Under the pieces are notes generated by a model that was not told the origin of the DNA, did not search any database, and saw only the letters and a list, made by a program, of their open reading frames with translations. Both the position numbers and the translations under genes were made by a program. Source: Chimonanthus salicifolius (lineage: Eukaryota > Streptophyta > Magnoliopsida > Laurales > Calycanthaceae). From it: a DNA stretch of 64,000 nucleotides. Below are positions 4,363 through 64,000 of this stretch, in pieces (within the stretch, counting starts at the first letter, position 1; each line of letters starts with the position of its first letter). Location of the stretch: contig CM023539.1 in the NCBI GenBank assembly GCA_013350335.1, forward strand, positions 26,715,043 to 26,779,042. The letters run 5' to 3'.

Positions 4363-7300
4363 TGTAACACCCCGCCCTTTCCACTCTAATAATCAGATTT
4401 TTTTTTTTAAATATAATAATCAACCAAGTGATCGGGGCAGAGTGTCACGACGTGAGTTAAGTTCGGACTTCTAAAATCCGACCCTTAACTGGCCAAGCCC
4501 ATGTGCGTATGGACTAAATCCATAAAAATCGATCCACACATGATACTAATAGAATTGCGGAAAATACTTAAATCTAAACTAACTGATGGCTATAATGGAA
4601 CCTATGACTACTCCAATTTCCATTCTTAGATAGCAAAGTACTTAATCATAATCTCCAAAAATTACTAGCAATCTTAACTAATCGTTCAATCAAACCATCC
4701 AAAATAAATCAAACCATAGCATCTACTTAACTACTTATTACATGCCAACACATCTAATTACCAAATTACATTGTCCAAATAACAAGTCCATAAATAGTCC
4801 ATTCAAAGTCCATTTAAATCATTCAAACCGTCCAAGCTTCTTTGCTTGGTCCCCTTCTCGATCCTCATTCTGTCTTTCCTGCATCATCCACTAAGGGTAG
4901 AGATAGGGCGTTAGATCAACGCGCCCAATAGTGTTTCCGAATAGGGCTACAACAAGGTTAGTATCAAACATGCAAATAATATAATAATACATGTGTCAAA
5001 ATTCCATAAAAACATGCTATGTATGAAATGAACATGTAATGAGTCCCACCCATCACCATTCTACATAGCCTCCTCTTGACGGGATTCTCATCGTCAAGGT
5101 ACCCCACAATGGTCTTTCGGATGCCCCGACAGAGTGTGGCCTCCGGATTCCTCTTGATGGGATTCTAATCATCAAGGTACCCCACAGTGGTCTTTCGGAC
5201 GCTCCGACGGAGTGTGGCCTCCGGTTACAACACCATCATCCCATGCCATGCATGAGATGTCTATGCAAACATGCCATTTGTAAATATAACATTTCATTCA
5301 AATAACTTATTCAAATAAACATAAAACAGCAAATAACATATGTGGTTACAACAAGGTAGGAAACCTACACTATGTTACTTTGTTCGACCCTTCCTTTGAA
5401 CCGTCTTCCGATCACGGCTTGTACACCGTTCTAGAAATCCAAATACCTTATGTACATAGCAGCAAGTTAATCATTTATCTACCTAATTTCCAGCAAAGCT
5501 CAATGTTCCAAGAACCACTTAGTGGGGTTCGGCCATAGCCATGGCCGAACCTCACCCATTAAAACTTTGGTCACCCTTATTTATCTAAACCATTTTGATT
5601 AACCCAAAACTCCCAAATGAACCTTGGTAGGGTTCGGCCATACTGTTTGGCCGAACCTTACCATCTTGGGTTTTCGCTCACATGTCCATTCCTATGATCT
5701 TTTCATCTTGGATCATTTCATCATAATTACCATCATGCCATTTAGCTTAGCCTTTGGTTTAATTTATCTTAAACAAAGTCCATCACCAAACCATTTTAGT
5801 GGGGTTCGGCCATACACATGGCCAAACCTCACCACTTAGTTTTTGATCTTTTAAATCCTTCACTCATTCATACAAATTAATCACTAAGTCCATCAATCAT
5901 CAATAGTGGGGTTCGGCCATACTACATGGCCAAACCTCACCAATCTAATTTTTGTTCCTCTTTCCATCATCTATGATGGCTGATTATATACCTATACTAA
6001 GTCCATATACAAACCTATCTTATTCTTAAATCAAAGCACATAATAATTGCATAATTTCCATCCTACACTTGATCCAATTATCCATCAAAAACAGTTCATG
6101 GGGTTCGGCCATACACATGGCCGAACCCTATGGTTCTCTTAATGAAAACCCTCCAATATTTATCTATGATGTTGATCAGTAAATTTACCATAATATTGAC
6201 ATGGTTCAGCCATGTCATAGCTACTCCAAAACAGTAAGCTTATCTACCTTTTAAATCCTTTAAAACCTCCATTTCATAATATGGATTTTGTCTCTCATAC
6301 ACCATAAAAATCACCAAGTTTTCCCATGGGGTTCGGCCATCCAAAGGAGCCGAACTCTATGGTCCATATTTTACCATTTTTAAACATCATAATCCTATAT
6401 CTAAACCATTGATGGGTCTGGCCATACGATGGCCAGATCTCATTCCCTTAACCAACTTTTATTTATCAATGGCTCAAAGTGCAACTTACCAATACCGCGT
6501 CTCCTTCGGTTCTTTGACTCCTTCCTTGGTCCTTTACTTCCCTTTCCTCTCCTTCTTTCTTCTTGTTCTTTTGGCTGAGACAAACAACCTCCTTGGAATA
6601 CTTCAGCCAGATGATATGAATTTGAGAGAGAAAATGAGAGAGAAAGAAAGAGAACTTTGGCCTTGGATGAATGTGCTAAACCTTGATGCCAAAACCCTTT
6701 GGCTGAACTTGTCTTGATGAAAAGAGATCAATCCAAGGACTGATTAAGCAACCAGCTGCTGGTTTTGGTTTTGAAAGATGAAAACCATCCAAGGAAGAGA
6801 GAGAGATATCCAATTCTTGATTCCAAATGGGGTGATCGGCCAAAGAGATGGGTTTTGATTAAACCCATGTGTAACTCCCATTGTCTTAACCCAAATTCTT
6901 TTATGTTACTTGGGGGTTTCATCTATGAAATGAAACCTATCCAAGCTCTCAACGTCTCCCATGGATGGTGTTTCTGTAACCTCCCCTTTCCTTAAGGCCT
7001 CATATGGGGGTTTCATTTTGAGATGAAACTCCCATGTGCTGCACCGTCCCTCCATTGGTTGCCTCTTTGTTTTGGCTTGTGTAACAACCACCTCTCTAAT
7101 GTGTAACTCCAAAAAATAGCAGCTCCATTCAGCTCCATTTGATCCTCATCAACGTCCCAATTGGGAGTTTCATCATTGAAATGAAACTCCCCTCCTCCAA
7201 GTGTGAACACACTTTGTAACTCCCATTGGTTTAATATCTATTTTGAAGTTTCAACTTTTAAATAAAACTCTCCATGTTCCAACGACTAGTCCCTTGGTTA

Positions 7301-8178
7301 ACCTTGTATTTGTAACTCTCAAACAGCCATTGTTTTAGCTTAAGTAATCACTACCTCTCCATTTGGAGCTTCATGCATAAGCCACAATCCCCATGCTCCC
7401 AACGTTGTAGCCTATACTTTTGAATTTGAAATGCCATAATCTATTATGTGTAACTCCACCAAACAGCAACTCCATTTATTCTCCATCCTTGGAGTTACAT
7501 GCATGAACTATCAATCCATTTATTGGCTGTCCTTTGAAGACTCAAGCATGGTATAAACCCTATACCATCTCCAACGTGCATATTGATTTGAAATTCAACT
7601 CTCACCCAAGTAACTCCCATGTAACGCCATTTCATTCTTCACTTGAGTGGGAGTTACATGCATATAAAGCTTCCCATGCAGCCAACGTTTCTTATTTTAT
7701 TAATTGGAAGTTAAAACACTATATTCTCATTCACACACCTCACCTATTTGAAATAATATTCCATCCAATTTATTTAATTAACTTCCCAACTCAACTCATT
7801 AATTTTAATGCAACTCAACCCATAAATTCAACTCAACTATTACCCATCATTTAATTTATCTCAATCCCACTCAAACATTAACTAAACTTAACCCAATTAA
7901 GTTTTGAACTCACAAATTGATTAATCATATCCACCTCGACCCATTGGGTCCAATTTGACCATTTTGACCCATTTAACAAAATTTGACCCAATTACCAATC
8001 TTGACCCGTTTGAGTACATCTCATCCATTTATTTGTCTTGTGAACAAAACTACCATCCTTTGGGTCTTGATTGAACCATTGACCCAATTAAATTCAAATC
8101 AAATATATCACAATGGCAATTCCATAAATATGGATAAATTCATGTAAATTGTTATCTTTGAAATTCCAGGGTGTCACA
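4363..8178 (-). repeat. A2 3' LTR (left)
   Basis: 3816-base LTR. Read on the + strand it opens with TGTAACACCCCGCCC, then the conserved tail block (GTTAAGTTCGGACTTC, CTTAACTGGCCAAGCCC), a GGGCGTTAGATCAACGCGCCC hairpin-like segment near 4907, two tandem copies of a segment with CCGACGGAGTGTGGCCTCCGG (5080-5225), the hairpin cluster at 5524-6440, CT-rich sequence at 6500-6560, TTTCAT hairpins at 6910-7190, and an AT-rich end with repeated TTGACCC motifs. Confidence 0.95.
5524..6440. repeat. Hairpin cluster GGTTCGGCCAT...ATGGCCGAACC in the A2 left LTR
   Basis: Seven hairpins start near 5526, 5630, 5801, 5908, 6101, 6329 and 6414. The arms are conserved while the 3-7 base loops vary (AGCC, ACTGTT, ACAC, ACTAC and so on). 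The spacers are AT-rich and differ. The last copy is the variant TCTGGCCAT-ACG-ATGGCCAGA, in which both arms changed together. Not protein-coding: the short frames across it are accidental. Confidence 0.9.
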
Positions 8179-8183
8179 ATACA

Positions 8184-12722: not shown

Positions 12723-13122
12723 TTCCCTAAGTCACGAAAACATTATTGACTTAGTTTCCTCTTACAGTTTGTATTTTCACAATTTTGGGAACATTTCCAA
12801 ATAAGTAAACTTTTTTTTTTTTTTGTTTTTGGGGAAAATTTCTAAATCCCTATTTGTTTGTTTTTCTCAATTTGGGGGAAAATTGGGGAAGTATATCCTA
12901 TGTTGCTATGTTTGATAAATCCATTATAATGACTGTACTTTTGCTATCTTTGTTGTTCTCAGATTGATTGTTCAGTCTGAGTCCACGAAGTAAATTAATC
13001 CGGCCCCCAGTCAGCGGACTCCGAAGAGTCGGTCAGTTGGGATTCTTATCCGTCAGTGAGACATGAAACCGTTTTAATCTTACTTCGGAAGATTCAACTT
13101 CCCGTTTCCCTCTGATACCAAC
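12723..13122 (-). other. A2 leader between primer site and gag start
   Basis: Untranslated leader. On the + strand, 12965-13122 is nearly the same as 34569-34725 (N1) and 55236-55393 (N2). It contains GACTCCGAAGAGTC at 13017-13030, which on the sense (-) strand is a 5-bp stem closed by a C(TTCG)G tetraloop. It also has degenerate TTTGGGGAAA repeats at 12785-12890. This part of a retrotransposon RNA usually carries packaging or dimerisation signals; that role here is inferred. Confidence 0.75.
13111..13122 (-). promoter_or_regulatory. A2 primer-binding site, initiator tRNA-Met type
   Basis: The - strand reads TTGGTATCAGA directly inside the 5' LTR, matching the complement of the initiator tRNA-Met 3' end (TGGTATCAGAGC) over its first ten bases. 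Confidence 0.9.
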
Positions 13123-16100
13123 TGTAACACCCCGCCATTTTCACTCTAATAATCAGAGTTTATTTTTTTTTAAATATAATAATCAACCAAGTGATCGGGA
13201 CGGAGTGTCACGACGCGAGTTAAGTTCGGACTTCTAAAATCCGACCCTTAACTGGCCAAGCCCATGTGCGTATGGACTAAGTCCATAAGAATTGATCCAC
13301 ACATGATACTAATAGAATTGCGGAAAATACTTAAATCTAAACTAACTGATAATGGAACCTATGACTACTCCAATTTTCATTCTTAGATAGCAAAGTACTT
13401 AATCATAATCTCCAAAAATTACTAGCAATCTTAACTAATCGTTCAATCAAACTATCCAAAATAAATCAAACCATAGCATCTACTTAACTACTTATTACAT
13501 GCCAACAAATCTAATTACCAAATTACATTGTCCAAATAAAACAAATAACAAGTCCATAAATAGTCCATTCAAAGTCCATTTAAATCATTCAAATCGCCCA
13601 AGCTTCTTTGCTTGGTCCCCTTCTCGATCCTCATTCTTTGTCTTTCCTGCGTCATCACTAAGGGTAGAGATAGGGCGTTAGATCAAAGCGCCCAGTAGTG
13701 TTTCCGAATAGGGCTACCACAAGGTTAGTATAAAATATGCAAATAATATAATAATACATGTGTGTCAAAATTCCATAAAAACATGCTATGTATAAAATGA
13801 AAATGTAATGAGTCCCACTCATCACCATTCTACATAGCATCCTCTTGACGGGATTCTCTTCGTCAAGGTACCCCACAGTGGTCTTTCGGAAGCCCCGACG
13901 GAGTGTGGCCTCTGGATTCCTCTTGATGGGATTCTCATCATCAAGGTACCTCATAGTGGTCTTTCGGACGCCTCGACGGAGTGTGGCCTTCGGTTACAAC
14001 ACCATCATCTCATGCCATGCATGAGATGTCTATGCAAACATGCCATTTGTAAATATAACATTTCATTGAAATAACTTATTCAAATAAACATAAAACAGCA
14101 AATAACATATGTGGTTACAACAAGGTAGGAAACCTACACTATGTTACTTTGTTCGACCCTTCCTTTGAACCATCTTCCGATCACGGTTTGTACACCGTTC
14201 TAGAAATCCAAATACCTTATGTACATTGCAGCAAGTTAATCATTTATCTACCTAATTTCCAGCAAAGCTTAATGTTCCAAGAACCACTTAGTGGGGTTCG
14301 GCCATAGCCATGGCCGAACCTCACCCATTAAAACTTTGGTCACCCTTATTTATCTAAACCATTTTGATTAATCCAAAACTCCCAAATGAACCTTGGTAGG
14401 GTTCGGCCATACTGTTTGGCCGAACCTGACCATCTTGGGTTTTGGCTCACATGTCCATTCCTATGATCTTTCCATCTTGGATCATTTCATCATAATTACC
14501 ATCATGCCATTTAGCTTATCCTTTGGTTTAATTTATCTTAAACAAAGTCCATCACCAAACCATTTTAGTGGGGTTTGGCCACACATGGCCAAACCTCACC
14601 ACTTAGTTTCTGATCTTTTAAATCCTTCACTCATTCATACAAATTAATCACTAAGTCCATCAATCATCATTAGTGGGGTTTGGCCATACTACATGGCCGA
14701 ACCTCACCAATCTGATTTTTGTTCCTCTTTCCATCATCCATGATGGCTGATTATATACCTATATTAAGTCCATAGACAAACCTATCTTATTCTTAAATCA
14801 AAGCACATAATGATTACATAATTTCCATCCCACACTTGATCCAATTATCCATCAAAAACAGTCTATGGGGTTCGGCCATACACATGGCCGAACCCTATGG
14901 TTCTCTTAATGAAAACCCTCCAATATTTATCTATGATGTTGATCAGTAAATTAACCATCATATTGACATGGTTCAGCCATGTCATAGCTACCCCAAAACA
15001 GTAAACTTATCTACCTTTTAAATCCTTTAAAACCTCCATTTCATAATATGGATTTTGTCTCTCATACACCATAAAAATCACCAAGTTTTCCAATGGGGTT
15101 CGGCCATCCAAAGGAGCCGAACCCTATGGTCCATATTTTACCATTTTTAAACATCATAATCCTATATCTAAACCATTGATGGATCTGGCCATATGATGGC
15201 CAGATCTCATTCCCTTAACCAACTTTTATTTATCAATGGCTCAAAGTGCACTTACCAATACCGTGTCTCCTTCGGTTCTTTGACTCCTTCCTTGGTCCTT
15301 TACTTCCCTAGCCTCTCTTTCTTTCTTCTTGTTCTTTTGGCTGAGACAAACCTTGCTGTAACCTCCTTGGAATACTTCAGCCAGGTGATATGAATTTGAG
15401 AGAGAAAATGAGAGAGAAGGAAAGAGAACTTTGGCCTTGGATGAATGTGCTAAACCTTGATGCCAAAACCCTTTGGCTGAACTTGTCTTGATGAAAAGAG
15501 ATCAATCCAAGGACTGATTAAGCAACCAGCTGTTGCTCTTGGTTTTGAAAGATGAAAACCGTCCAAGGAAGAGAGAGAGATATCCAATTCTTGATTCCAA
15601 ATGGGGTGATCGGCTAAAGGAATGGGTTTTGATTAAACCCATGTGTAACTCCCATTGTCTTAACCCAAAGTCTTTTATGTTACTTGGGGGTTTCATCTAT
15701 GAAATGAAACCTCCCCAAGCTCTCAACGTCTCCCATGGATGGTGTTTCTGTAACCTCCCCTTTCCTTAAGGCCTCACATGGCGGTTTCATTTTGAGATGA
15801 AACTCCCATGTGCTGCACCGTCCCTCCATTGGTTGCCTCTTTGTTTTGGCTTGTGTAACAACCACCTCTCTAATGTGTAACTCCACAAAACAGCAGCTCC
15901 ATTCAACTCCATTTGATCCTAATCAACGTCCCATGTGGGAGTTTCATCATTGAAATGAAACTCCCCTCCTCCAAGTGTGAACACACTTTTTAACTCCCAT
16001 TGGTTTAATATCTATTTTGAAGTTTCAACTTTTAAATAAAACTCTCCATGTTCCAACGACTAGCCCCTTGGTTAACCTTGTATTTGTAACTCTCAAACTG

Positions 16101-16947
16101 CCATTGTTTTAGCTTAAGTAATCACTACCTCTCCATTTGGAGCTTCATGCATAAGCCACAATCCCCATGCTCCCAACGTTGTAGCCTATAATTTTGAATT
16201 TGAAATGCCCTAATCTATTATGTGTAACTCCACCAAACAGCAACTCCATTTATTCTCCATCCTTGGAGTTACATGCATGAACTATCAATCCATCTATTGG
16301 CTATCCTTTGAAGACTCAAGCATGGCATAAACCCCATACCATCTCCAACGTGCATATTGATTTGAAATTCAACTCTCACCCAAGTAACTCCCATGTAACA
16401 CCATTTCATTCTTCACTTGAGTGGGAGTTACATGCATATAAAGCTTCCCATGCAGCCAACGTTTCTTATCAATTGGAATTTAAAACACTATATTCTCATT
16501 CACACACCTCACCTATTTGAAATAAATATTCGATCCAATTTATTTAATTAACTCCCCAACTCAACTCATTAATTTTAATGCAACTCAACCCATAAATTCA
16601 ACTCAACTATTACCCATCATTTAATTTATCTCAATCCCACCAAACATTAACTAACCTTAACCTAATTAAGTTTTGAACTCACAAATTGATTAATCATATC
16701 CACCTCGACCCATTGGGTCCAATTTGACCATTTTGACCCATTTAACAAAATTTGACCCAATTATCAATCTTGACCCGTTTGAGTACATCTCATCCAGTTA
16801 TTTGTCTTGTAAACAAAACTACCATCCTTTGGGTCTTGATTGAACCATTGACCTAATTAAATTCAAATCAAATATATCACATTGGCAATTCCGTAAATAT
16901 GGAAAAATTCATGTAAATTGTTATCTTTGAAATTCCAGGGTGTTACA
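13123..16947 (-). repeat. A2 5' LTR (right)
   Basis: 3825-base partner of the left LTR with the same internal order, including the hairpin cluster at 14290-15210 (copies near 14293, 14399, 14571, 14674, 14868, 15095 and 15181). Differences from the left copy are scattered substitutions and a few small indels, for example nine bases missing near 13350 and an insertion near 15353. The hairpin at 15181 is a perfect GATCTGGCCAT-ATG-ATGGCCAGATC. Confidence 0.95.
14290..15210. repeat. Hairpin cluster in the A2 right LTR
   Basis: Seven GGTTCGGCCAT hairpins matching one-for-one those of the left LTR, with a few arm substitutions (GGTTTGGCCA at 14573 and 14676). Confidence 0.9.
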
Positions 16948-18872
16948 GCATGGCCGAACCCTAATTTTTATTATGGATGAAAGAACCAATGATGAACCAT
17001 AGGGTTCGGCCATGTCTATGGCCGAACCACCATGGAAAGAGTTAAGGAAGTTTTATGGGTTTAACGTGATTTTAAACTAGAAGATGATGGACCATAGGGT
17101 TCGGCCATTTGGTATGGCCAAAAGACATTGGTTTGATTTTAATGGATTTGAAGGAAGGAAATCATAAATGTATGTGTATGATTTTTTTTTAAAAGGTTTA
17201 AAAGGATTTAAATGGATAGAGGTATGAGAACCAATCATAGATGTATAATAGGTTTTAATGGAAATAAGGAACCATAGGGTTCGGCCATGTGTATGGCCGA
17301 ACCCCATGGAGAGACAATGATGGATAGTGTGGTTAGGTGTAATTAATTTTTAAGATGGTTAATAATTTAGAAAAGTGTTGGGCTGTTGGATCAAAAAGAA
17401 TGGAAAAGAGGAGCACCAAAACCGAAGGGTGAGGTTCAGCCATGGTGTATGGCCGAACCCCACCAAGTACTATTTATGGATTTAGATATCATAGGGTTCG
17501 GCCATGGTGTATGGCCGAACCCCATGAGGAAGGTTTTTATGGATTAGGTGGTTACCAATGGTGGATGATTAATTGTTAAGTGATTAACTAAGAAATAAGG
17601 GAGTAATGGATCAAAGGAAGGATTAAAATCAAATAGGTGAGGTTCGGCCATAGTATATGGCCGAACCCCACAAGTTGTGTTTTTGGACTTAGACACTATT
17701 ACAAATCAAATGGGTTGTTGGTTTGACTCATGGATATGTTATAAGGTAACGGGATTTCACAAAGAGGGCACGATCGTGAACAGTTGCTAGCTTAAAGCTC
17801 AGTGACACCTTAGTTGTCTTGGGTAGGATTCTACCTCTTTGAAACCGTGGTTTATGTGTGATGGTTTTATCTTATTTTGATGAGTTATGTTGTAAGATAA
17901 TATGTTGCAAATATGACGATTTAATGCTATGTATATCATATAAAATAGCATGTGATTCATTAGCAACTCATGCATGGCATGGGGTGAAGGTTATGTGACC
18001 GGAGGGGCCACACTTCGTCGGGGCGTCCGAAAAAACTATGTGGGGGTACCTTGATGATGAGAATCCCATCAAGAGATAACCGGAGGGGTCACACTCCGTT
18101 GGGACGTTCGAAAGACCTATGTGGGGTACCTTGATGATGAGAATCCCATCAAGAGATAACCGGAGGGGTCACACTCCGTTGGGACGTTCGAAAGACCTAT
18201 GTGGGGTACCTTGATGATGAGAATCCCATCAAGAGGATACATTTGATTGTGATGGGTGGGACTCATTGCATACATGGCATGGCATGATTTTAGAAGATTT
18301 TGATGTTACATTATTTATATGCATGTTTTATACTAACCATTTGGTAGCCTTACTTAAAATTCCTACTGGGCACGTTGTTCTAACGCCCTACTTCTACCCT
18401 AGTAAATGAAACAGGAAATGAAGGAAATGATGATCGTGAACGGAGCCAAGCATAAGAACTTGGGAATGTTTATTGTTATTTTATTAAGTTACTCAAGAAC
18501 ATGTAATTTGAGTAGTTAGACTTCGGCATGTAATAATTTAGATATTTGTTATGCTTTATGAATGGTTTGGTATGGATATTTAATTTAATGTATTTGGTTA
18601 AGTGACTAAGTACTTTACTATCTAAAAGAAATGAACTAGAGTTAGGTTCTATTATAATCCACAGTTTATGTTATTTTCAGCAAAGCTAACATATTATGTG
18701 TGAACCGTTTTCATGGACTTAATCCATGCACACATAGGGTTGGCCAGTTAAGGGTCGGACTTTAGAAGTTCGGACTTAGCTCGAGTGGTGACGTCCCGCT
18801 CTCTATCACTTTTAAAAAAAAAATATAGACTCTGATTTTTGGAAAGTAAGTGAAAAAGGGAGGGGCGTTACA
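16948..18872 (+). repeat. A1 3' LTR, second part
   Basis: Resumes with the TSD GCATG and GCCGAACC, the right half of the split hairpin. Six more hairpins follow at 17003, 17100, 17279, 17434, 17495 and 17640. Then come GGTAGGATTCTACC at 17822, CTCATGCATGGCATGGGG near 17967, three tandem units with the CTCCGTTGGGACGTTCGAAAG core, the ACGCCCTACTTCTACCCTAG block at 18380, and the conserved end block terminating in AGGGGCGTTACA at 18872. The flanking CTATT is probably one copy of this element's TSD; the other copy lies outside the window. Confidence 0.88.
17998..18240 (+). repeat. Tandem repeat in the A1 LTR, about 80-base period, three units
   Basis: Units start at 17998, 18079 and 18159. Each is ACCGGAGGGG, CACACTCCGTTGGGACG, then GTGGGGTACCTTGATGATGAGAATCCC. 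The last two units are identical over most of their length. Related arrays with 63-base units occur in the B LTRs. Confidence 0.88.
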
Positions 18873-20767: not shown

Positions 20768-21165
20768 TGATCCCTGTGTGACCGAGTAGGCTGAGGAGGT
20801 GCTCGCCTAGGTCGAGGGACGAAGCGGTGAGGGGCAGCTCCTGCTGGCATGGGTTGTGATCCATGTGTGACCGAGTAGGCTGAGGAGGTACTCGCCTAGG
20901 TCGAGGGACGAAGCGGTGAGGGGCAGCTCCCGTTGGCATGGGTTGTGATCCCTGTGTGAGCGAGTAGGCTGAGGAGGTGCTCGCCTAGGTCGAGGGACGA
21001 AGTGGTGAGGGGCAGCTCCCGCTGGCATGGGTTGTGATCCTTGTGTGAACGAGTAGGCTGAGGAGGTGCTCGCCTAGGTCGAGGGATGAAGCGGTGAGGG
21101 GCAGCTCCCGCTGGCATGGGTTGTGATCCCTGTGTGACCGAATAGGCTGAGGATGTGCTCGCCTG
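20768..21165 (+). repeat. 89-base tandem repeat in the G 5' LTR, four units plus partial
   Basis: Units start at 20768, 20857, 20946, 21035 and 21124 (partial). Each contains GACCGAGTAGGCTGAGGAG, CGCCTAGGTCGAGGGACGAAG and CAGCTCCCGCTGGCATGGG with a few substitutions. All reading frames across it are incidental. Confidence 0.95.
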
Positions 21166-21700
21166 ATCATTGGTTAAGGGATTGAGGTGGTCTAGGTAAG
21201 GCGGTCGTGGGCCATGTTGAGTACCTACCGAATGGCCCGTACGGTGGGTCGAGTGCGTGTTGTGTGGGAACCATGTACGTGGATCTTTGTTATTCCTTAG
21301 TGGTAGATATGCAGTGTGTGATGTATGTTGTGTGATTATATGCATGTGTTCCCTTGCTGAGTATGAAGTACTCACCCCCTTGCCTTTCATGTGGCTCGAT
21401 CTATGCGGGATCCAGCGGGTCCCAATACCAGGCTTAGGCGTTGATGCTTTCGGATTGCTTAATTACTTTCCTTTTATTAATTAGAAAGAACCTTGTGTCT
21501 ATTTTGGATATTGTCTATCGTTGTGGATGACTGTACTAGCTACCTACTGCACTGTTGTGTTAACTGGACTTATGGCATCTCTTTTCTCTTATGGTGATTG
21601 ATGTTTAGTCAAAAAAAAAATATGCCGGTAGTTTGGAATGTGTGATATCTCGGTTTAGTATCGGTAGTAATACGCCCGTTTCGGGATGGGGTGTTACATT

Positions 21701-21712
21701 TGGTATCAGAGC
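21701..21712 (+). promoter_or_regulatory. G primer-binding site, initiator tRNA-Met
   Basis: TGGTATCAGAGC, two bases after the LTR end; a full 12-base match to the complement of the initiator tRNA-Met 3' end. Confidence 0.93.
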
Positions 21713-21948
21713 GCGGTTCTACTCTCGGACTGTGCTGTTGGGCTAAATTGAGAGTTGTTAATGATTGACGACTAAGTTCGTCCCCCGCAAAGTATGGTAG
21801 ATGAGACCGAGTTTGAGGTGGAGACTAGGCACGCTGATTTTGTTGTTGTATGTTGGTAGAATGGTTAAATTTTGACGCTTGAGCTGTGTTTGGTTTTAGT
21901 TCCTTATTTGACTTAAAGGCTGATCGGTGCTTGATTTGTGAACAGGCG

Positions 21949-24024: not shown

Positions 24025-24086
24025 ATGAATTGCGTGACCATAAAGAACAAGTATCCACTGCCGTGGATCGATGATTTGTTCGATCA

Positions 24087-42664: not shown

Positions 42665-42874
42665 TTCTAAACAAGAAATTTATTATTTAGGGTTTTTAAA
42701 TTTTGAAATCCATCCTTGCCATATGATGGTGGCCAAATTATTTTAGGCTATGGAATGGATCTAAAATCCATCAAATGGAAGGCAAAGAAATGGAAGAGAT
42801 GGTCTAAGGAAAAAAATGAAATGAATGTATTAAGTATGGAAAAGATGGAAGTTTTAATGGATTGAATGGACCTT

Positions 42875-44765: not shown

Positions 44766-45003
44766 ACCGGAGTCCATGCTCCGTCGGGGAGACCGAGAAG
44801 CAAACATGGGGATATCTGAGGGGCCATAACCGAAGTCCATGCTCTGTCGGGGCGACCGAGAATCAAACATGGGAATAGCCTGAGGGCTATAACCGGAGTC
44901 CATGCTCCGTCGGGACGACCAAGAATCAGACATGGGGATAGCCTAAGGACTATAACCGGAGTCCATGCTCCGTCGGAGCGACCGAGAAGCAAACATGGGG
45001 ATA
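44766..45003 (+). repeat. 63-base tandem repeat in B2, four units
   Basis: ACCGGAGTCCATGCTCCGTC or close variants start at 44766, 44829, 44892 and 44955 with an exact 63-base period. B1 and B3 have three units. Confidence 0.9.
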
Positions 45004-49106: not shown

Positions 49107-52100
49107 TGTAACGCCCGCCCCATTTTCACCGAAATTAGAGTCTATTTTTTTTTTTTTGAAGTAGAAGTGACAACGGGCGCGGACGTCACGACGAGAGTTA
49201 AGTCCGAGCTTCTAAAGCCCGACCTTTAACTGGCCAACCCCACGCGTGCGCGAAACTAAGTCCACGGGAACGGTTCACGCGTAGGAAGTAAGCTTGCGAA
49301 ATATAATTACGTGCAGAACATTATAATAGAGACTATCCTACCGGTTTTAGATAGAAGGGAAGATACAACATTGAATTACCAAAAATACCCCTATATTCAC
49401 ATTTATGCCTCAAAACGATATTGTCCATAATGCAGTGCAAATCATAGCAAGAAATATAAATTATACAGTCTGACTAGCTAAGCTACTTTAAATTACATCT
49501 CCAAAATGAAACTTAAATAAAACTAGATATCCACTTCCCAAGCTCCTAAGCTTGGCTCCCGGCGTGTCCACCATTTCTGCCATCTCCTGCGTCATCAACT
49601 AGGGTAGAAGTAGGGCGTTAGTCAACGCGCCCAGTAGGACTCCGAGTAGGGTTAGCACATGGATTAGTGATAACATACATACCAAATAATAATAAAGTAA
49701 ACATATGATGAATGTCATGCCATGGGTTCCTATGTCATGTGTCCCACCCATCCACCGTATCATCATAAAATATCGTATCCCCCTTGACGGCAAAGCCTTG
49801 TCAAGGTGTCCCCATGTTTGCTTCTCGGTCGCCCCGACGGAGCATGGACTCCGGTTATAGCATAAGAGCTATCCCCATGTCTGATTCTCGGTCGCCCCGA
49901 CGGAGCATGGACTCCGGTTATAGCCCCTCAGGCTATCCCCATGTTTGCTTCTCGGTCGCCCCGATGGAGCATGGACTCCGATTTCATTATTTTCCCGCCC
50001 ATGCCATGCATGAGATGTAAGTACATTATGCTATGTAATATATATATAATCCATATAAAATCCATAGCATCTAAGTATAGTCCATAGTCTTAAAAAAATA
50101 TTATCCATAGCATTAAATCATAATCCATAGTACTTAAACATATAATTCATAATTCGAAATCCCATCATAAGATAAATCATATAATTATCAAATTAAAGAA
50201 CCATCACATATCCAAGGCTTACAAAAAGGTAGGAATCCTACCGAATACTTTTTAGCGTCCCGTTACCTTTCCGTTCGATAATCCGGTCGCCGATTGCGTA
50301 CTGTTTGCGACGTCCCGGTACCTTATTACATATTTACCGAATTAGTCCATATGTTATCCATGATTAAGTCCTTAACTTATTACAACCTTAGGCTCTTAAT
50401 TACATTATCGTTTACCAAAATCAGCCCCTAACTTAGCCTCGTTTTCCGTGGTTTAAAACACATCCATAAATCCAATTTTGGCCATTTTAAATATTCCGAT
50501 TTGCGAGCCTAAGACGTAACATCTATCTGTTTCATTTAATCATTCGCAATGTATCCAATTTTATGTCTAACATACATAGGGTTCGGCCATGCATCATGGC
50601 CGAACCCATGGTTCTTCAATGTGGCCACTAATTACGATTTTGCCACTAGACCTCTATGGTTTAATATTTCCTCATTCATGCATATTTTTAAGTCAAAAAT
50701 TCATCCATAACTTAGATCCATTAGGCATTCATTGACTATGCCCTAATATCCATAAAAATAGCCACCTACTTTGATTAAATTTGAAAACATTTAATCCCAT
50801 AATTCATTCCACATTTGGCCTAAGATGTGGCCCACATAAGGAAGGGGTCATGGGTTCATTTTATCCCCTTTTAATCCCACCTCCAATGAAATTAAATCAT
50901 TCATTTAAATCCCCATTTAAATTTATCATCTCTTTCCATCATTTTCCATTCTTTTTACCTTCATTAAAAATCACTAAATCATCACCATAGGGTTCGGCCA
51001 TTCACCATGGCCGAACCCATGGTTCATGTCTCACCTTCATGGGTGCCCTTTTAAGACCAATGTTTTGTCCAAAAACAATCCATTTTTAAAATCAATAACC
51101 TTCATTCATTTTGGCCCTTTAAAAACTTTCAAAATATTAACATATTAATCCATCATTTCCATCCTTTAAAGCCATTTAAAAAAAATCACTTTTCAACACC
51201 ATAGGGTTCATGGTCCATCTTATCCATGCCATCTTTAAAACTAAAATACCTATTTACATTCCTCATGGTTTTCTCATTAAAACTCCTTAAAAATCAACAA
51301 CTTTTCTATCACTTAAAACCTTAACATCATTAACCCTTCTCCATAATTTTAGACCTCAAACCCTAATTAAAAATCATCCATCATTTACCATGGGGTTCGG
51401 CCATGCTACATGGCCAAACCCTATGGCCCATGAATCCATTAAAAATCCAAATTCTCTATGCTTAATAAAGACTTGAAATTCCATTAAAAATTCCATTCTT
51501 CCATTTCATCCATTTCTTAATCCATTCCTCCATTTTTATTTATTTCTTATCCTACCATTTGATGGATCTTAGATCCATGGCCCACAACTTTTTGGCCATA
51601 TTAAATCTAAGAAATGGATTCCATATCCTTTTTTTAAGAAAATCTTATCACCCGACGACTCCTCCGGTCCTTCTTCCTCTTTGCTCTCCTTAGCCTTCTC
51701 TTCTCTTCTTCTCCTTGATGTACGGTCAAGATGAGCTTGATCAATGGTGAGGCTCTCCAAGCTTAGGATCAGCCAAGATTGAGTGGGTTTGCTTGAGAGA
51801 GGGAGAGGGGAAGGTGATGAGAAAGGTGTCTCAAGTGTTTACCTTGAGGTGGTGGGTCAACACTTAGCCTTTTCCTTTTCTTTTCTTCTATTTTCTTCTC
51901 TTTTTCTTCTAAGTTTTCTTCTTTCTTCCTCTTGTGAAGGTAGGGGACGGTTTTGAGAGTGCAAAGAGATGGAGAGAGTGTAGTGGTTAGATGGAAATGA
52001 GATGGGAAGTCATCTCATCTTTTTTTTTGGTTGTCATTCATTCCTCCCACCAACCAACATGGCATTAATGGTGGTGGTTGGGGTAAAACCACCATTTAAG

Positions 52101-52725
52101 CCCATGGTTTCAGTCTTGTGTTTCTTCAAAGTGGTTTGTGTTTGTTTGGGGTGGTTTGTGTTTGTTGGAATGGTTTTGACCATTTGACCATAATTAACTT
52201 AATCAATCTAATTCAATTGATCCTTAGGTTAAGTTAATTAATTAATTCCTACTTAATTTTAATCCCATTAATTTCCCTCTATGAAATCCACCCATGGTTG
52301 ACCAAGTCAACCATGGTGGTCGGCCCCACCACCCTTGGGTCCACACGCCACCTCAATTGGTGAGGTGAAGGTGGGCCCCACTTGGTCATGCCATTTCATT
52401 TCATTACTAACTTAGAGGGTTTAATTCCAATTCACCCTTTTTAAATCAATTGGGCCACCATTGGGCCCACGGCCCAACCAAATTATTTTCTACCCTTTAC
52501 CTTAGAGTTTGGACCAATTTTGATCCATGGGGTCCCACATGGTGATCGGGCCCACTTTGACCATCGTTGACCCTTCTGACGAATTCCATTCACTCTATGG
52601 TCAATTGGGTCCTTCTTGGGCCTTTGTCCCAAAATTTGATCCATTTGGTATTCCATCACATCAAAATTCAAATTAAAGTAAATAAATGCCAAATATATAT
52701 TGATTTAAAATTTCAGGCTATTACA
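49107..52725 (-). mobile_element. B3: solo LTR of family B, - orientation
   Basis: 3619 bases with perfect TSD GTCCA (49102-49106 and 52726-52730). On the + strand it starts TGTAACGCCCGCCCC and ends CAGGCTATTACA. Same plan as B1 reversed: 63-base units (49800-49990), GGTAGGAATCCTACC (50231), three GGTTCGGCCAT hairpins, the GACGACTCCTCCGG segment (51654) with the donor GT changed to AT, a CT-rich tract, and hairpins TTGACCAAGTCAA (52298) and CACCTCAATTGGTGAGGTG (52349). Confidence 0.95.
50577..51424. repeat. Hairpin cluster in B3
   Basis: Copies at 50580, 50991 and 51394. A fourth site near 51203 keeps only ACCATAGGGTTCATGG, apparently a hairpin that lost its centre, since homologous B1 sequence has a full copy there. 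Confidence 0.85.
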
Positions 52726-54407: not shown

Positions 54408-54888
54408 CTAACCTTCCGTTGAAGACCCTGCATCATCACCAAAATCGAAGAAGTTGTCAGGGCATGTCGTCGACGTGTGCCCCAACACTCCACAAGTCAG
54501 ACAGGGTATTATTCCCGGTCCCCCAATGTAAGGACAATTAGTCCTCTCCTTCCCGTGCCCGTGAAGTCCATAAACAGGGCAAATAACCTCAAGGGGGTAG
54601 GGGGCAGAAACTACAGTTGTGCCCCTCTTGGTTGCACAATTCACACATATACCCGGGCGAACCTATCTCCCCTACGGATTCTCTTATGATTGGGATATCT
54701 CCCATATTCTCTTCTGGAAAAGGGGCTGGAATTACTTCGACATCCTCGGGTGATCCTACTTGGACGTCTACATTAACTCCCATAGCGCGGTCTGGCCTGC
54801 TGGAGTTGTTGAAAAAAGAAACCAGATCTATAGGACAGCTAGGGGTTCCTCTGTCCCACAACTCTGTATACTTTATGTTGCTCGACAT
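54408..54888 (-). pseudogene. N2 copy of the three-zinc-knuckle protein, frameshifted
   Basis: Homologue of the N1 protein. The N-terminus (MSSNIKYTELWDRGTPSCP) and first knuckle (CELCNQEGHNCSFC) lie in one frame. An extra G in a G-run at about 54600-54604 (five Gs against four in N1) then shifts the frame. The rest reads YPLEVICPVYGLHGHGKER, CLTCGVLGHTSTTC and the acidic tail DDAGSSTEG. The second knuckle has also lost a Cys (CPVY for CPVC). The acidic middle region differs most between the copies, while the knuckles and first 22 residues are conserved. Confidence 0.82.
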
Positions 54889-55393
54889 ATCTGTATCACA
54901 ACAACAGAAGCATATCAATGACAACCGCAGTTCTAATCAAACTAATCTTTGTTTTGGGGAATTTCCCTATGTATCACATAATTTTGCTTATTTTGGGGAA
55001 AATCTTGATGTTCCTTGTTTTGGGGAAATTGCCAAATCAACATCTTGTATTTCTCATTTTTGGGGAAACTTCCTAAGTATCAAGTGTTGTTTCTCAATTT
55101 GGGGAAAAATCTGGATGTTTCTCATTTTCGGGGAAATATGTCCTATTTTGTTATGTTTGATAAATCCATATTTATAGTGATTGTCCTTCCCTTGCTATTA
55201 TTCCTTTTTCATCAATTGTTTCCCTTAGATTGAATGCTTCAGTCTGAGTCTAATCAAAGTAAATTAATCTGGCCCCCGTGCAGCGGACTCCGAAGAGTCG
55301 TTCAGTTGGGATTCTTATCTTGTCAGTGAGATATGATACTGTTTTAATGTTACTTTGAAAGATTCTTCCTTCCTGTTTCGCTCTGATACCAAC
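54889..55393 (-). other. N2 leader and primer-binding site
   Basis: Contains TTTGGGGAAA repeats (54950-55140) and the leader shared with A2 and N1 (55236-55393), including GACTCCGAAGAGTC at 55287-55300. The initiator tRNA-Met site (TGGTATCAGAGC on the - strand) is at 55380-55391. Confidence 0.85.
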
Positions 55394-56856: not shown

Positions 56857-59800
56857 TGTAACGCCCCGCCCTTTCCAAGAATTTCAGAGTCTAATTTTTT
56901 TTTTTTAAAATAAACATCGGAAGAGAGCGGGCGGCGTCACGACGCGAGTTAAGTTCAGACTACCCAAGTCTGAACCTTAACTGGCCACCCATGTGTACAT
57001 GGAATAGACCATGATAGTGAATCACACATGGAACTAACATCAACATGCGGAATAATCTAGATAATTGCGGAATAGAAAGACGAGATAGCAAGTAACAGTC
57101 TTAAATATTAAATAACATAGATCAACCATCCATAGGTTATGATCCTAATCAAACCATAGCAAATAACGAATTATTACATGTCCAACAATAGTATTCAAAT
57201 GACAGTAATATAACGTAATCCAAATCCATCATTAAAGCACCTAGGCTTAGCTCCCCTCTCGGTCAATGACCTTTCCTTTCCCCTTGCTTGTACCTGCAAT
57301 CTCCTCTGAGGATAGAATTAGGGCGTTAGATCAACGCGCCCAGTAGGTTCCCGAATCAGGGCTACCACATGTTAGCATATAAAACATGCATATACATATC
57401 ATAATACATGATCATCAAAACAGGTAAAACAATGCTATGAAATATGCACATGCAATGAGCATCCCCCATCATGTACTTTCATAGCCATCACTTGACGTGC
57501 CTTGCACCGACAAGGTAAATTACATCACACCTTCATCTCTTCTATAAGCGATGTACATGTAATGAGCAACCCCCATCATGTACCATCGTAGCCATCACTT
57601 GACGTGCCTTGCACCGGCAAGGTTAATTACAACAACATTCATCTCTTCTATACAATATGTACATGCAATGGGCAACCCCCATCATGTACAATCGTAGCCA
57701 TCACTGTAGAACTTCATTCATTATCCCATGACTATGCATGAGATGCCAATGCCTGTATGCCATTTGTTAATGCATAATATATCATTTGAAACACATATAT
57801 TAAAACAAGAGTATCATAAGAAATACTGGGTAAAACCGTGGTTACAAGTAGGTACGAAACCTACTTAAACTTGGCTTAAGTGTTCGTTCCTTTTTGAGCT
57901 TCACCTGCTCACGACTCGCTCATCGTTCAACTTCCGGTACCTTATCCATATATCAATCAATAAGTCATAACATCATTCACTTATTTAATCACATTATAGA
58001 CCCATCCACATCATGTGGGGTTCGTGTCCGTACACCCAACCCTATGATCATTTCCATCATTGATCATTCGACTGGTATTTACAGTTTTTGCCATTGACCT
58101 TAAACCATATTGAAACCAACATTCATAACCATTCCACCATAGTGGGGTTCTATTACCCATTACCATATGGTTCTCCATTAGGATCTTTTTAAACCTTTTA
58201 ATTCAACATGGAACCATTAACAATTACGACTCATAAGCTTAGCCTATTTAACCCATGCCATGGTCCATAATTATCATGAATGATCCCCTACTTAAAACAG
58301 TCATAAACTCCCATTTAAAACAGCCCATTAATTATCAAAACAGCCCCATGGGGTTCGGCCATACTCATAGCCGAACCCTAGCGTTCACTTGATCCAATCA
58401 ACACCATGATCACTCATGGTTTAATCATGCTAACTCAACCATGAATTAAACATGGTTCAGCCGCATATTAACCCACCAAAACAGTAACATATTAATCCAT
58501 TTATTACCATAAGAACACCATATCTTCACATGGTTTTTAACTCACCAAAAACATGAAAGACTTACATGGGGTTCGGCCATCCAAGGTGGCCGAACCCTAG
58601 GTCCATGTTTTGGTCTTTCATACATATTTTTGGTGTCACTTATTCATATAAAAATCAGCACATCATTGCTGCACTTTAACCTCTCAAAACCATCTAATAA
58701 ATTCATTATTTTGTCCAAATAACCATAGCACCTCATGGGATTCGGCCATCCAAGATGGCCAATCCCCATGGTCCATTTTTCCAGTTTTAATCCACTGTTT
58801 TAGATCAGTAACTTAACCATAACATTACCATGGTTCAGCCATATATTGGCCAACCAAAATCAGTAAATAATCTTCATGTAAATCACATAAAAACCCCATG
58901 GTAATGTATGGTTTTTATCTCTCAAAACCATCACCATTAACCATAAAATGATCACACCATTTCATGGGGTTCGGTCATGCTCATTGGCTGAACCCTATAG
59001 CCTTTGCTTTGAACCACTTAAACATGTCATCTTATGTCTAATCTAATCATCCAAAACAGTAAGACATTTGCATGGTTTTATCTTACAAAAATCATCAAGA
59101 TTTCAACATCAATTCATGGTGTTCGGCCATCCAAGATGGCCGAACCCAATGAACCCTTTCATCATTTGATACCCAAGGTCTTAGACCCATGATACATTCA
59201 GCCATTCATGACATCTGAATCCATGTTTTAAACCTTTCTAAAACATGCATTTGAATCTTAAATCAAACCCAAAAACAGTTCATAAAACCCATGGTTTTCA
59301 TGTTTCAAAACATGAAAACCAAGCCATCTCTCACATGGGGTTCGGCCCTTCATGGTGGCCGAACCAATGGTTATTTTTACCATTTTAAATCCTCCACTAA
59401 TCAAGGTTAAAACCCTGGTGTAATCGGCCATCACCATGGACCAACACACACCCATTTTTTTAACCAAAAATCCATGAAACACTTACCAATTTCCAAGCTC
59501 TTGTCTTGCCTTTTGATCCTTGTTTCTTTTCTTTCTTAGCCTCCCTTCCTTTACTGATTATTTGCTTGAACCAATGGTGAAATCACCAAGTTACAATTCG
59601 GCCAAGAGAGGGTGTTCTTGAGTGAGGGAGAGAGAGAGATGAATTCTAAAACTTTTGCACAAGAAATTCGGTCAAGCATGGTGTTGTTTGCCTTTGTATT
59701 TTCAGCCACCAAGACTCCTCCACTCCCTCATCAATTCATGCACAAACCAATGGGTATTGGGTGCCATCCAAGGCACCCCTTGGCAGCTACCCATGCAACC

Positions 59801-60571
59801 ATACAGCTTCCCAACCAACTCACCTCAAATCCATGCATTTGCATTTAATTTCTACCATGGAACTCACCAAAACAAGTCCCCAACGTGTGGGACTTGTTTT
59901 GGTTGGGTTGAGGCCAGCCAACCTCTTCAACTTACCCTTAAACTCATTGATTTACAGTCCCTTGAATTTCCATTTCAACTCACCCAACTCAAGGTATGTT
60001 TATTCCAACCCAACTCATCACATTTAATGCATTTCATTTAATGCACATGAGTTAACTCACCTTTTGATTTAATTCCAACTCACCTCAATCCCACTCAACT
60101 GATTTGAATCGTGTTTGAGCTCCCTTGAGGGTTCACACGGTCAACAATAGTCAACTCGACCCGTTGGGTCCACTTTTAGCTCCTTGACCCGTTTTGACAA
60201 CATGACCCATTTATGGTATTTTGGTCATTTCTAATTGGTTTTTACATATGGATCAAGCCTACCCATTTTTCCTCCACTTGATTTCCAATCAAATAGGCTT
60301 AACCCCTTTTAATTTAAAATCACAAAACGGTCAAATAACCCAGCAAGACCCGATGGGCCCCATTTGTGCCTTTTGACCCATTTAGCCATTTTTGACCCAA
60401 ATGATGAAAATTACCCAACCAATCAAACTTAACATTCATAATGTGCTCATATGATTTTATTTTGAGCAATGGGCCCCACTATGTCCTTACTTAACATCAC
60501 AAAATAATTAATTTAACAACTCAGGGGCATTTTGGTAATTTTTCACTTCATTGAGAAATTGGGGTGTTACA
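56857..60571 (-). repeat. D4 3' LTR
   Basis: 3715 bases from TGTAACGCCCCGCCC to GGGGTGTTACA. The first 60 bases match the inverted ends of the N1 right LTR. It contains three CCCCCATCATGTAC repeats (57464-57690) in place of the CTCCGTCGGGGCG units of other families, then a hairpin cluster, and TTGACCC-rich AT sequence near its end. Confidence 0.9.
58348..59372. repeat. Hairpin cluster in the D4 LTR
   Basis: Six copies, near 58352, 58569, 58739, 58968, 59119 and 59339. They are more diverged than in A and B and have loops such as CCAAGG and CCAAGA. Confidence 0.85.
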
Positions 60572-60634
60572 ATATAACCCTCTTTTTAAAATTTTCGTCC
60601 CGAAAATTGAGTGAAGTAGGGTTCTCAAATTAAA

Positions 60635-61456: not shown

Positions 61457-64000
61457 TGTAATAGCCCGAATTTTCTAATTAATATATATTTGACATTTAT
61501 TGACTTTAAATTGAATTTTAACATAATGGAATGCCAAATGGACCAAATTTTGGGACAATGGCCCAAGGATAGCTCAATTGGGCCATGGATTGGATGAAAC
61601 CCATTTAATGGGTCAATGAGGACTAATCGGGTCAACGATGGTCAAAGTGGGCCGATAGCCATGTGGGGCCCAATGGATCAAAATAATCGGTTCCAACCCT
61701 AAAGTAAGTGGGCAAAGAGAGAATCTAATTGGGCCATGGGCCCAATGATTACCCAATAAACCATGAATTAGAATTAATTCATTTAATTGGTCAATGGTAA
61801 GTAATTGAGTCAAGATAGTCAATTTGGGTCAAAGAGCCATGTGGGACCCAATGGACCAAGGCAACATGGCCAATGGGGCCCACCTCCACCTCACTCGTTG
61901 AGGTGGCGTGTGGACCAAGGAAAAGTGGGGCCAACCATGGTTGACTTGGTCAACCATGGATAAATTGAGAGGACTAAGGTGTACTAAGGCGAATTAAATT
62001 GATTAAAATTATTGGAAAAGGATTTAAGTTAAAATCAATAACATGGCCAAGTGGGGCCCACCTCCACCTCATCAGGTGAGGTGGCGGGTGGGGTAGGTAT
62101 AGGTGGGGGCCGTCCACCATGGTTGACTTGGTCAACCATGGGTGGATTTCTTAGAGAAATAAATTAATGAAATTAAATTAGATAAGAATTAATTTAACCT
62201 AAAGGATCCAATTAATTAAACTAATTAGATTGGTCAATTTTGGGTCAATGGAAGAAGTCAAATGATGGTTTTATCTAAACCAAAACCACTCTAAGAAACA
62301 CAAACCACCTAAGAAAAAACACAAAATTACCATGGATTTAGGGTGGTGGTTTTATCCCAACCACCACCACTCCAAACATGGTGACCCATACCTAGCCATG
62401 AGTGGGTCAAATGGTCAAGGTTGAAAGACTCAAACCCCCCTTGTGCAAACACCAAAACCATTGGCTTGGTGGTGGTTTGGTCTCAACCACCACCACCAAG
62501 GTCAAGGGAGCCCATACTTTGGTTGGTGGAGCCATAATGGTGGAGTGTAGTTTGGTCAACCAAAATGAGATGTGTTTGATCTCATTCTCATCTCCTTTCC
62601 ATCTCTCTCTCTCCCTCTCTCTTGCACTCTCAAAAAAAAAAAACGTCCCTTGCACTAAGGAAAAGAGAACAAAGCTTAAAAGAAAAACTTAGAAAGAAAG
62701 AAGAAGAAAAGAGAAGGAAAAGATTAAGTCTTGGGCCACCCCAAGATCAAGATCCTTGAAGAATTTTCTTCCCCATTTCCATACTCTTTCCCTCTCAACC
62801 TAACCCTATCTTAGCCAACCCAAGCATGTCCCACCATTGATCAAGCTCATCTAGCCGATCATCAAGAAGAGAAAGAAGGAGAAAGGGCTAAGGAAAAAGA
62901 AAGAAGGACCGGAGGAGTCGTCGGTGCGGTAAGATTTTCTTAAAACAAGAGTTTATGTTTTTTTTTAAAGATAGCATGTGGAATCCATTTCTTAGACTAA
63001 ACATGGCCAAAAATGTTGTGGGCCATGGATCTAAGATCCATCAAAAGATAAGATAAGAAATGGATGAAAAATGGAGGAATGGATTAAGGAATGGAAGCAT
63101 GGAAATTTTAAATGGAATTGTTATAAGTCTTTATTAAGCATAGGAAAAATAGAAATTTTGATGAATGGATGACCATAGGGTTCGGCCATGTAGCATGGCC
63201 GAACCCCATGGTGAATGATGGATAATTTAATTTAGATTATATGGTTTAAAATGTTGGAGAATGCTTAATGGTTGTTATGAGGATTTCAAGATTTTAAAAT
63301 GATTGAAAAGTTGGTAAGTTTTAAATGGTGATGATTAGTGATCTATGAGGATTAGGACCCATGTTTTTAGGTCATTCATGGGCTAAGTATGGTTTATATA
63401 TGTGGTTAAACAAAATAGAAATTAGGTTAGATTAATGATGAAATTTAAATGGATTTACAAAGTGTATGATATTTTTTTTAGAGGGCCAAAATGAATGAGG
63501 ATTATTGATTTTAAAAAATGGATGTCTTTTGGACAAAAACATTGGTCTAAGAATGGCATCAATGGATGATGAGCCATGAACCATGGGTTCGGCCATGGTG
63601 TATGGCCGAACCCTATGGTGGTAATTAATAATTTTTAATGATGGGAAAGTAAAGAAATTGGTTAAGAAAAATGGATAGATTGTATGGGTGTCACAAGTAT
63701 GATATGTGATGTTTAAATGGAATAAAGATGGTGGTCTAAATGGATGATTTAATTTTCATTGGAGGTATGTTTAAATGGGTAATTGAAACCAAGAAAAATG
63801 GGGAAAGAAACATCATGGGTTCGGCCATGGTGTATGGCCGAACCCATGACCCAAATTTTGATCAATTTTAGGCTAAGGTTAAATGCATGTATCAATGCTT
63901 AGGAGTTTGATTTAAAGGGGCCAAAATGATTAAAGTTTTGTGATTTTAAATTGGATTATTTTGGGACAAAACTTAGTCTTTGAAAGTGGTATCCATAAAG
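61457..64000 (+). mobile_element. B4: family B LTR, runs past the window end
   Basis: Starts TGTAATAGCCCG after CTTTG (expected TSD). Same order as B1/B2: CACCTCACTCGTTGAGGTG and TTGACTTGGTCAA hairpins (61887, 61940, 62121), CT-rich tract (62600-62625), GGAGGAGTCGTCGGTGC with GTAAG at 62929, then hairpins at 63179, 63589 and 63818. Whether it is a solo LTR or part of a full element cannot be seen. Confidence 0.9.

Follow-up and report, generated by a model that had tools for sequence, protein, structure and literature searches.

The stretch of the Chimonanthus salicifolius genome analysed here (contig CM023539.1, positions 26,715,043 to 26,779,042; 64,000 nucleotides, below called the window) contains numerous long terminal repeats (LTRs) of retrotransposons, in which one hairpin, consisting of the arm GGTTCGGCCAT, a short loop and the complementary arm, is repeated in clusters. 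This hairpin array, present in enormous copy number, is under constraint and occurs in a single group of retroelements; it lies behind a conserved 5' splice site and is very probably placed in a leader intron. We suppose, with a probability of roughly 40%, that the array in the leader of these Tekay/Del-like elements may mark unspliced genomic RNA for packaging and/or export.

Hairpin copies in the window and in the genome

Within the window the arm occurs 96 times with at most one mismatch, against 0.88 expected from shuffles. There are 26 perfect arm-loop-arm hairpins (none in 100 shuffles), and 53 hairpins if up to six mismatches over both arms are allowed (one in a single window shuffle), which agrees well with the estimate of about fifty copies across LTRs made in an earlier, sequence-only reading of the window. 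The genome-wide search proposed in that reading returned 68,959 perfect hairpins with loops of 2-30 nt in the whole assembly (852.6 Mb, 591 contigs) and none with the reversed-pattern control. In a genome sample of 200 kb, represented by 20 fixed, non-random 10-kb places on contigs 1-9, 52 of the 56 hairpins were located within 1.5 kb of homology to the window LTRs, and the 14 places having no such homology contained three hairpins, all imperfect. The hairpins are characteristic of these LTRs and confined to one retroelement group. The copies of the window are distributed as follows (slashes mark predicted splice boundaries), with one more weak, isolated hairpin at 39586.

4295-4300 (+): splice donor GTAAGT of the LTR that hosts the A element, GGAGACGCGGAATCG/GTAAGT
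4346-4362 (+), left part, and 16948-16960, right part: hairpin split by the A element; target duplication CATGC, 5 bp
4363-8178 (-): LTR A1, the 3' LTR of the A element; seven hairpins at 5526-6439, splice-donor G at 6489
13123-16947 (-): LTR A2, the 5' LTR of the A element; seven hairpins at 14295-15206
15255 (-): splice donor of LTR A2, ATTG/GTAAGT
17003-17667 (+): cluster of six hairpins, plus the split one, in the host LTR of A
26348-27229 (+): cluster of six hairpins in LTR N1; one arm on its own at 27331, and upstream a decayed donor ..ACCT/GCAAGT
27885-31720 (+): B1, a solo LTR with target duplication TCATG; four hairpins at 29480-30243, splice donor at 29289
34838-35046 (+): hairpins of the truncated LTR C; three copies, one of them degenerate
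41394-45690 (+): LTR B2; splice donor at 42656, five perfect hairpins at 42877-43917
49107-52725 (-): LTR B3; target duplication TGGAC, three hairpins at 50580-51420, decayed donor ..GGGTG/ATAAGA upstream
56857-60571 (-): LTR D (analysed as 56857-60549; TGTAACACC start at 60571); weak donor at 59486, eight hairpins, none perfect, at 58352-59446
61457-64000 (+): LTR B4, running off the end of the window; three perfect hairpins at 63179-63844, splice donor at 62929

The sequence-only reading described the loops as variable, but their variation is not free: among 182 sense-oriented hairpins with at most three mismatches, the loop is 5 nt long in 143 and 4 nt long in 28, the most frequent loops being GGTGT (45) and GTTGT (20). 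Nine hairpins without an assignable orientation were excluded from this count and from the wobble and lower-stem counts given below. The hairpin motif was absent from the viral sequence collection searched, and no publication on it in a plant LTR was found by title or abstract opening (subscription papers being outside the search). The bacterial collection yielded one perfect hairpin (L001:2631-2656, a contig of Candidatus Buchananbacteria), which has bacterial-looking surroundings and is taken as a chance occurrence.

The LTRs that could be measured are 3.6-4.3 kb long, start with TGTAATAGCC or TGTRACACC and end with G[CT]GTTACA; the internal part, where it follows the LTR, begins with GTTGGTATCAGAG. 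Domains found on separate pieces (RVP_2, RVT_1, RT_RNaseH, Retrotrans_gag, Integrase_H2C2 and SH3_Tf2-1) correspond to the Ty3-gypsy type gag-PR-RT-RNaseH-INT, the A element encodes a zf-CCHC Gag, and the nearest named proteins, among the best 120 of 7,976 matches, are mostly plant reverse transcriptases. The Pfam Chromo domain was seen in locus L015 only below the cut-off (E 0.014, 15.7 bits against 25.1). Long LTRs and domain content fit Tekay/Del-like Ty3-gypsy elements, a clade name that we infer from these two features. Among 30 listed matches to LTR ends, the 28 of the hairpin group (some of them one LTR read from its other end) each have one to nine hairpins in the 3.3 kb upstream; the remaining two are ends of another gypsy element and have none.

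Divergence of arms and spacers

Between LTR families the arms change more slowly than their surroundings, as the sequence-only reading had suggested. When the hairpins of one LTR are aligned to those of another, identical positions in arms and in cluster spacers are, respectively, 66/66 and 568/763 for B1-B2, 57/61 and 575/696 for B1-B3, 43/44 and 411/602 for B2-B3, 66/66 and 366/605 for B1-B4, 66/66 and 596/703 for B2-B4, and 43/44 and 455/739 for B3-B4. For the more distant pairs they are 41/44 and 344/586 (A2-D), 50/55 and 338/728 (A2-B1), and 43/52 and 342/700 (B1-D). The statement that spacers share little between families applies to A2-B1, B1-D and A2-D, where spacer identity is 46-59%, but not to the B group, inside which it is 60-85%. 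Spacers of H and N1 were compared by local scores only, some of which are above those of shuffles. Within a single LTR, the spacers of B1, B2, B3, Hr, N1 and D score somewhat above shuffles and those of A2 do not, which bears on a possible origin of the array by unit duplication. Hairpins having no partner in the other LTR align poorly (12/31, 7/18, 7/22, 22/35, 21/61 and 8/34, with the exception of 5/5 in B1-B3), which indicates that hairpin copies also come and go.

The same tendency is seen in a comparison anchored at the splice donor, which included 91 pairs of 14 LTR pieces, non-independent because of shared sequences, with hairpins defined in one member of the pair only. Arm and spacer identities were.972 and.965 in one pair,.916 and.788 in seven,.797 and.606 in 15, and.719 and.497 in the remaining 68 pairs.

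The situation is different after insertion. In A1 and A2, two LTRs of one insertion that are about 3% different, 127/131 positions are identical in arms, 732/752 in cluster spacers and 2684/2771 in the rest, so the arms diverged as fast as the spacers and were free to change. Equal rates of change in arms and spacers, which according to the sequence-only reading would speak against conservation of the hairpin, are thus seen in this single insertion pair and not between families. Conservation of arms between families together with their spacer-like decay after insertion points to selection on active, replicating elements rather than to gene conversion or simple descent. We reject the latter two on the A1/A2 arm decay and the donor-anchored identities: conversion, one of the options listed in the sequence-only reading, is disfavoured by the former, and descent by the arms being kept while spacers drop to about 50% identity.

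Splice donor, acceptors and predicted leader intron

On the sense strand, the LTRs contain a CT-rich and then a GA-rich stretch ending with GGAGWCG../GTAAGW, and we report this conserved 5' splice site ahead of the hairpin clusters as a new finding. A count of this pattern alone gives 6,521 matches in the assembly, against eight for the control. At 13 distinct motif-defined donors from the window and the additional loci, the 3,900 nt taken upstream contain 10 ATG triplets and the 3,900 nt taken downstream contain 216. Hairpins with at most three mismatches are lacking in the 14,498 nt upstream of these donors and number 68, of which 66 are distinct, in the 1.5 kb downstream: at donor 4295 the inserted A element has cut off the cluster proper to that LTR, and the two hairpins scored downstream belong to A1 and are counted twice. 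Since loci L002-L005 and L026-L037 were picked at hairpins, the presence of hairpins downstream is in part a matter of selection; their lack upstream is not. In five of the 13 cases the first hairpin lies 44-53 nt past the donor. In the 350 nt before the donor, ATG is scarcer than its reverse complement CAT in five of six LTRs (ATG/CAT 0/8 in A2, 2/7 in B1, 2/7 in B2, 1/9 in B4, 1/2 in Hl and 7/7 in D). The sequence-only reading placed the clusters between a donor-like segment and GGTAGGATTCCTACC. The donor half of this description stands for the LTRs that include the stretch, the donors of B3 and N1 being decayed and that of D weak; the other half does so only in part, as the exact string is present in B1 and B3 and partial matches in B2 and N1.

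As for the acceptor, an AG abuts the first gag or open reading frame 0 (ORF0) ATG behind the primer-binding site (PBS) in all six leaders considered (A, w34725, w55397, L011, L015 and L017). The sites read ..TACAG/ATATGTCGAG in L011 and w55397, ..TACAG/ATATGACGAG in w34725, ..GCACAG/ATATGTCAAG in L015, ..TTAG/GGAAATGG in A and ..TTAG/GAAATGCC in L017. A pattern built from them also matched L019, although its seven sites are no test, because AG at the ATG was required; the six leaders are the test. The relevant features of the window are:

12727-15255 (-): leader intron predicted by sequence signals for the A element, between the LTR donor and the acceptor ...GTGACTTAG/ that immediately precedes GGAAATGGCTCC
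13107-13122 (-): PBS region of the A element, GTTGGTATCAGAG
34150-34165 (-): ORF0 start of the w34725 piece; acceptor ..TGTTATACAG/ATATGACGAGCAAC, zinc-knuckle ORF of 156 aa, PBS next to 34725
54875-54890 (-): ORF0 start, second window copy; acceptor ..GTGATACAG/ATATGTCGAGCAAC, frame broken after 99 aa

ORF0 is located between PBS and gag in four pieces. Two copies are whole (L015:919-1524, 201 aa, and the window copy at 34165, 156 aa), both containing three zinc knuckles, and two are broken (the window copy at 54890, 99 aa, and that of L011 near 6464, 53 aa). The L015 ORF0 has no Pfam match and, used as a query, found one relative (81%) among 5.8 billion proteins. L011 has one acceptor before ORF0 and another before gag. 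The A element has hairpins and no ORF0 between PBS and gag, and L017 has neither; in the gag frame of A, a stop follows a few codons past the ATG adjoining the acceptor.

The predicted intron of the A element contains the hairpins, the remaining LTR and the PBS, and splicing at such acceptors would join exon 1 to an AUG among the first in the spliced mRNA. We are fairly confident that the hairpins lie in a leader intron of this kind. It does not correspond to the intron of Ogre, situated between the gag-pro and rt-rh-int ORFs, as the donor here is part of the LTR and precedes both PBS and gag.

Possible role of the array and rival explanations

Outside the conserved arms the flanks of the hairpins tend to pair as well. 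Lower-stem pairing over 97 distinct flank pairs is 0.527, against 0.397 +/- 0.016 for shuffled partners (0.598 against 0.442 in a first set). The excess is concentrated at positions -4 (64 paired, 36.7 expected), -5 (60 and 33.9) and -6 (38 and 23.5), where several Watson-Crick types occur, and is small or missing at -1 to -3 (52 and 49.6, 34 and 28.8, 59 and 58.5). Such a covarying lower stem favours a structure. The folding of four pieces (z from -3.4 to -5.5 against shuffles) is a consequence of the palindrome and no proof of use. The telo-box core TAGGGTT, present in some flanks, was considered and rejected, being not general and missing from the GTGA type. Among the options listed in the sequence-only reading, an RNA stem-loop in the leader fits best, in view of its position downstream of a conserved donor that ends an ATG-depleted exon and of the lower-stem covariation, although G.U pairs are not in excess. 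On balance we lean slightly towards hairpins that act at the RNA level.

The proposed scheme is as follows. The LTR would be transcribed from a point about 300-400 nt ahead of the strong 5' splice site, as suggested by the ATG-poor, CT- and then GA-rich exon, and exon 1 would be spliced directly to the acceptor that adjoins the start codon of the first ORF past the PBS. The spliced mRNA would lose hairpins, remaining LTR and PBS and so be translatable but not copyable, whereas unspliced RNA would retain all three. The stem-loop, with its fixed 11-bp upper stem, its loop of 4-5 nt and its covarying lower stem, could then be the recognition element of unspliced genomic RNA, recognised for packaging, by Gag through its zinc knuckle, or for the export of RNA that still contains its intron, or for both.

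Several observations weigh against this scheme. The covariation comes from few flank types and possibly from few events. Variants of the arms include 42 G.U and 71 A.C pairs, without any sense-strand preference for wobble, and an A.C mismatch of the sense strand, equal to G.U on the opposite one, recurs at -1 or -2; the fixed arm sequence and narrow range of loop lengths are also compatible with DNA binding. As to the predicted intron, exon 1 of LTR D is not ATG-poor, the donors of B3 and N1 carry a mutated GT (ATAAGA and GCAAGT), the LTR has a further conserved acceptor-like site of its own (TTGATCTAACGCCCTATCTCTACCCTTAG in A2), and in A the stretch between this site and gag is not ATG-free. 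Genomic copies of spliced junctions were found in the whole assembly neither for the LTR-internal nor for the ORF0 acceptor, though none are expected if spliced RNA lacks the PBS. Finally, the complete 3,394-bp LTR of L017 (2684-6077, TGTAATAGCC start) has no hairpin even at six mismatches, although it possesses a GTAAG site after GGGAGAGCCACGGATT and a leader with a gag acceptor. The array is thus not needed in every relative, and the leader layout may exist without it; it is present in most, not all, LTRs examined here, L017 being outside the 30 LTR-end matches owing to its end sequence. This hairpin-free LTR lowers the weight of the RNA-marking scheme and raises that of a DNA-level role, and it is a natural comparison for the array.

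The main rival, unlikely in our opinion but to be taken seriously and close to the protein-binding option of the sequence-only reading, is an array of palindromes that bind a dimeric host protein at the DNA level and would act as an enhancer, a silencer or a boundary within a part of the LTR that resembles an intron. It would explain why the 11-bp arms are fixed in sequence and not in pairing alone, why loops are held at 4-5 nt and several sites occur per LTR, and why sense G.U is not in excess. For a dimer site, however, the two sides of the lower stem need not change together, as they do at -4 to -6, and a promoter role leaves unexplained why hairpins are found solely downstream of the 13 donors and never on the U3 side.

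Mutational upkeep, by template switching of reverse transcriptase or gene conversion between arms, or else a recent shared ancestor, is a considerably weaker explanation, which we regard as improbable. The many hairpins per LTR and the recurrence of loops within a family speak for it, and template switching would also produce covarying flanks; it does not account for the retention of arm sequence, beyond mere complementarity, between LTRs with spacers half diverged, and the A1/A2 comparison leaves no room for conversion on resident copies.

An integration landing pad, with hairpins kept because the same elements are drawn to them when they insert into old LTRs, is very improbable, although the hairpins do look like insertion hotspots, with an excess of about 3-fold. 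Two insertions of the window are in hairpins: the A element sits in a hairpin loop of another LTR, and the 3' end of LTR D adjoins a hairpin GGCCATGTTGTATGGCCGAACC, so that LTR D was itself inserted in one. Genome-wide, 341 GGGCGTTACA LTR ends occur 0-30 nt before an intact right arm, and among the first 100 of them, in contig order, 79 fall into the left arm and loop (17 positions) and 21 into the 14 positions upstream (binomial p 5.6e-7; 6.5e-4 if the GGTTC peak is left out), which scales up to about 15.8 against 5.1 per bp. The left-arm set comprises 230 ends; of the first 100, again in contig order, 19 are exactly at GGTTC and 81 are spread over 30 flank positions, or, scaled to the set, about 44 at GGTTC against 6.2 per bp in the flank. 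This preference is too weak for a pure landing-pad explanation, which we rejected; moreover, it brings no clear gain to the targeted element and leaves the position behind the donor unexplained. It seems that the excess is a by-product of having a palindrome in DNA that is an abundant target. A survey of plant LTR retrotransposon insertions (Jedlicka 2019, PMC6911290) reported that the preference for palindromes is only weak in general and, for Tekay, not significant (p 0.61). Insertions favour a palindrome and make 5-bp duplications in both cases, but here a single defined sequence shows the excess, a sequence-level integration preference. LTR insertions at 45690, 18872 and 36372 of the window are in or beside the acceptor-like stretch CCCTACTTCTACCCTA of other LTRs, possibly a second hotspot, and LTR B3 is inserted in the short palindrome GTGGACCAC.

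The weakest candidate, a small-RNA or Pol III element (a DCL substrate or box-B-like promoter), scarcely deserves credence: GGTTCG resembles the start of tRNA box B, and bovine leukemia virus is reported to make microRNAs from Pol III promoters, but at 11-17 bp the stem is short for a plant dicer substrate, box B has A where G follows GGTTCG here, the window has no Rfam match at gathering thresholds, and the 26 perfect hairpins of the window have the arm GGTTCGGCCAT, not the tRNA-like box B GGTTCGANNCC.

The RNA-marking scheme has parallels in known systems. Packaging signals (Psi) of retroviruses are located between the major splice donor and gag, in unspliced genomic RNA. The array would share with them the position of stem-loops between donor and gag, their predicted restriction to unspliced RNA and a Gag with a CCHC knuckle. 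It differs in having about 3-9 near-identical copies over about 1 kb of LTR instead of a few different loops and in that Gag itself would be translated from spliced mRNA. With Rev/RRE and with the Cer1 retrotransposon, the elements would have in common a genomic RNA with a predicted intron, and L011, L015 and two window pieces have an extra small ORF0 with its own acceptor. For Cer1, PMC10309623 describes a protein, CERV, made from spliced mRNA and needed for genomic RNA export. ORF0 and hairpins recall this export as a suggestion only; A has hairpins without ORF0, L017 has neither, and ORF0 is a candidate regulator. One could imagine a Rev/RRE- or Psi-like system of plant chromoviruses, in which alternative splicing from the LTR donor yields an ORF0 zinc-knuckle regulator and Gag, either of which recognises the iterated GGTTCGGCCAT stem-loop, unspliced RNA is exported and packaged, and the palindrome is also a preferred landing site for new copies, so that the element partly nests in its own hairpins; we consider this full version a rather unlikely, speculative one.

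Introns of Ogre and of EVADE/BARE1, as described in PMC12786077, PMC3735527 and PMC6317226, either separate gag-pro from pol or interrupt the gag-pol ORF. Splicing yields RNAs with different coding roles there and, as predicted, here, but the intron proposed by us extends from the LTR to the first ATG and carries the hairpin array. The 2025 review among these papers (PMC12786077) states that RNA export of plant LTR retrotransposons was not studied directly in plants and that introns are generally lacking, with the exceptions of Ogre and EVADE. A leader intron with an iterated stem-loop would be a defined, testable candidate for the way in which plant LTR retrotransposons distinguish genomic RNA from mRNA, and the perfect hairpins and matching donors of this assembly (68,959 and 6,521) provide a base for statistics.

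Two further repeats of the window were noticed. A different Ty3-gypsy element, with no hairpins over 20768-25117, has repeats 97% alike (20768-21698 and 24183-25117), made of 89-bp tandem units, around a 713-aa gag-protease ORF. LTR B1 (about 2950-3120 of the LTR, window about 30834-31004) and LTR B2 contain 63-bp tandem repeats with CCGGAGTCCATGCTCCGTCGGGGCGACC, which are hairpin-prone and belong to the same predicted intron.

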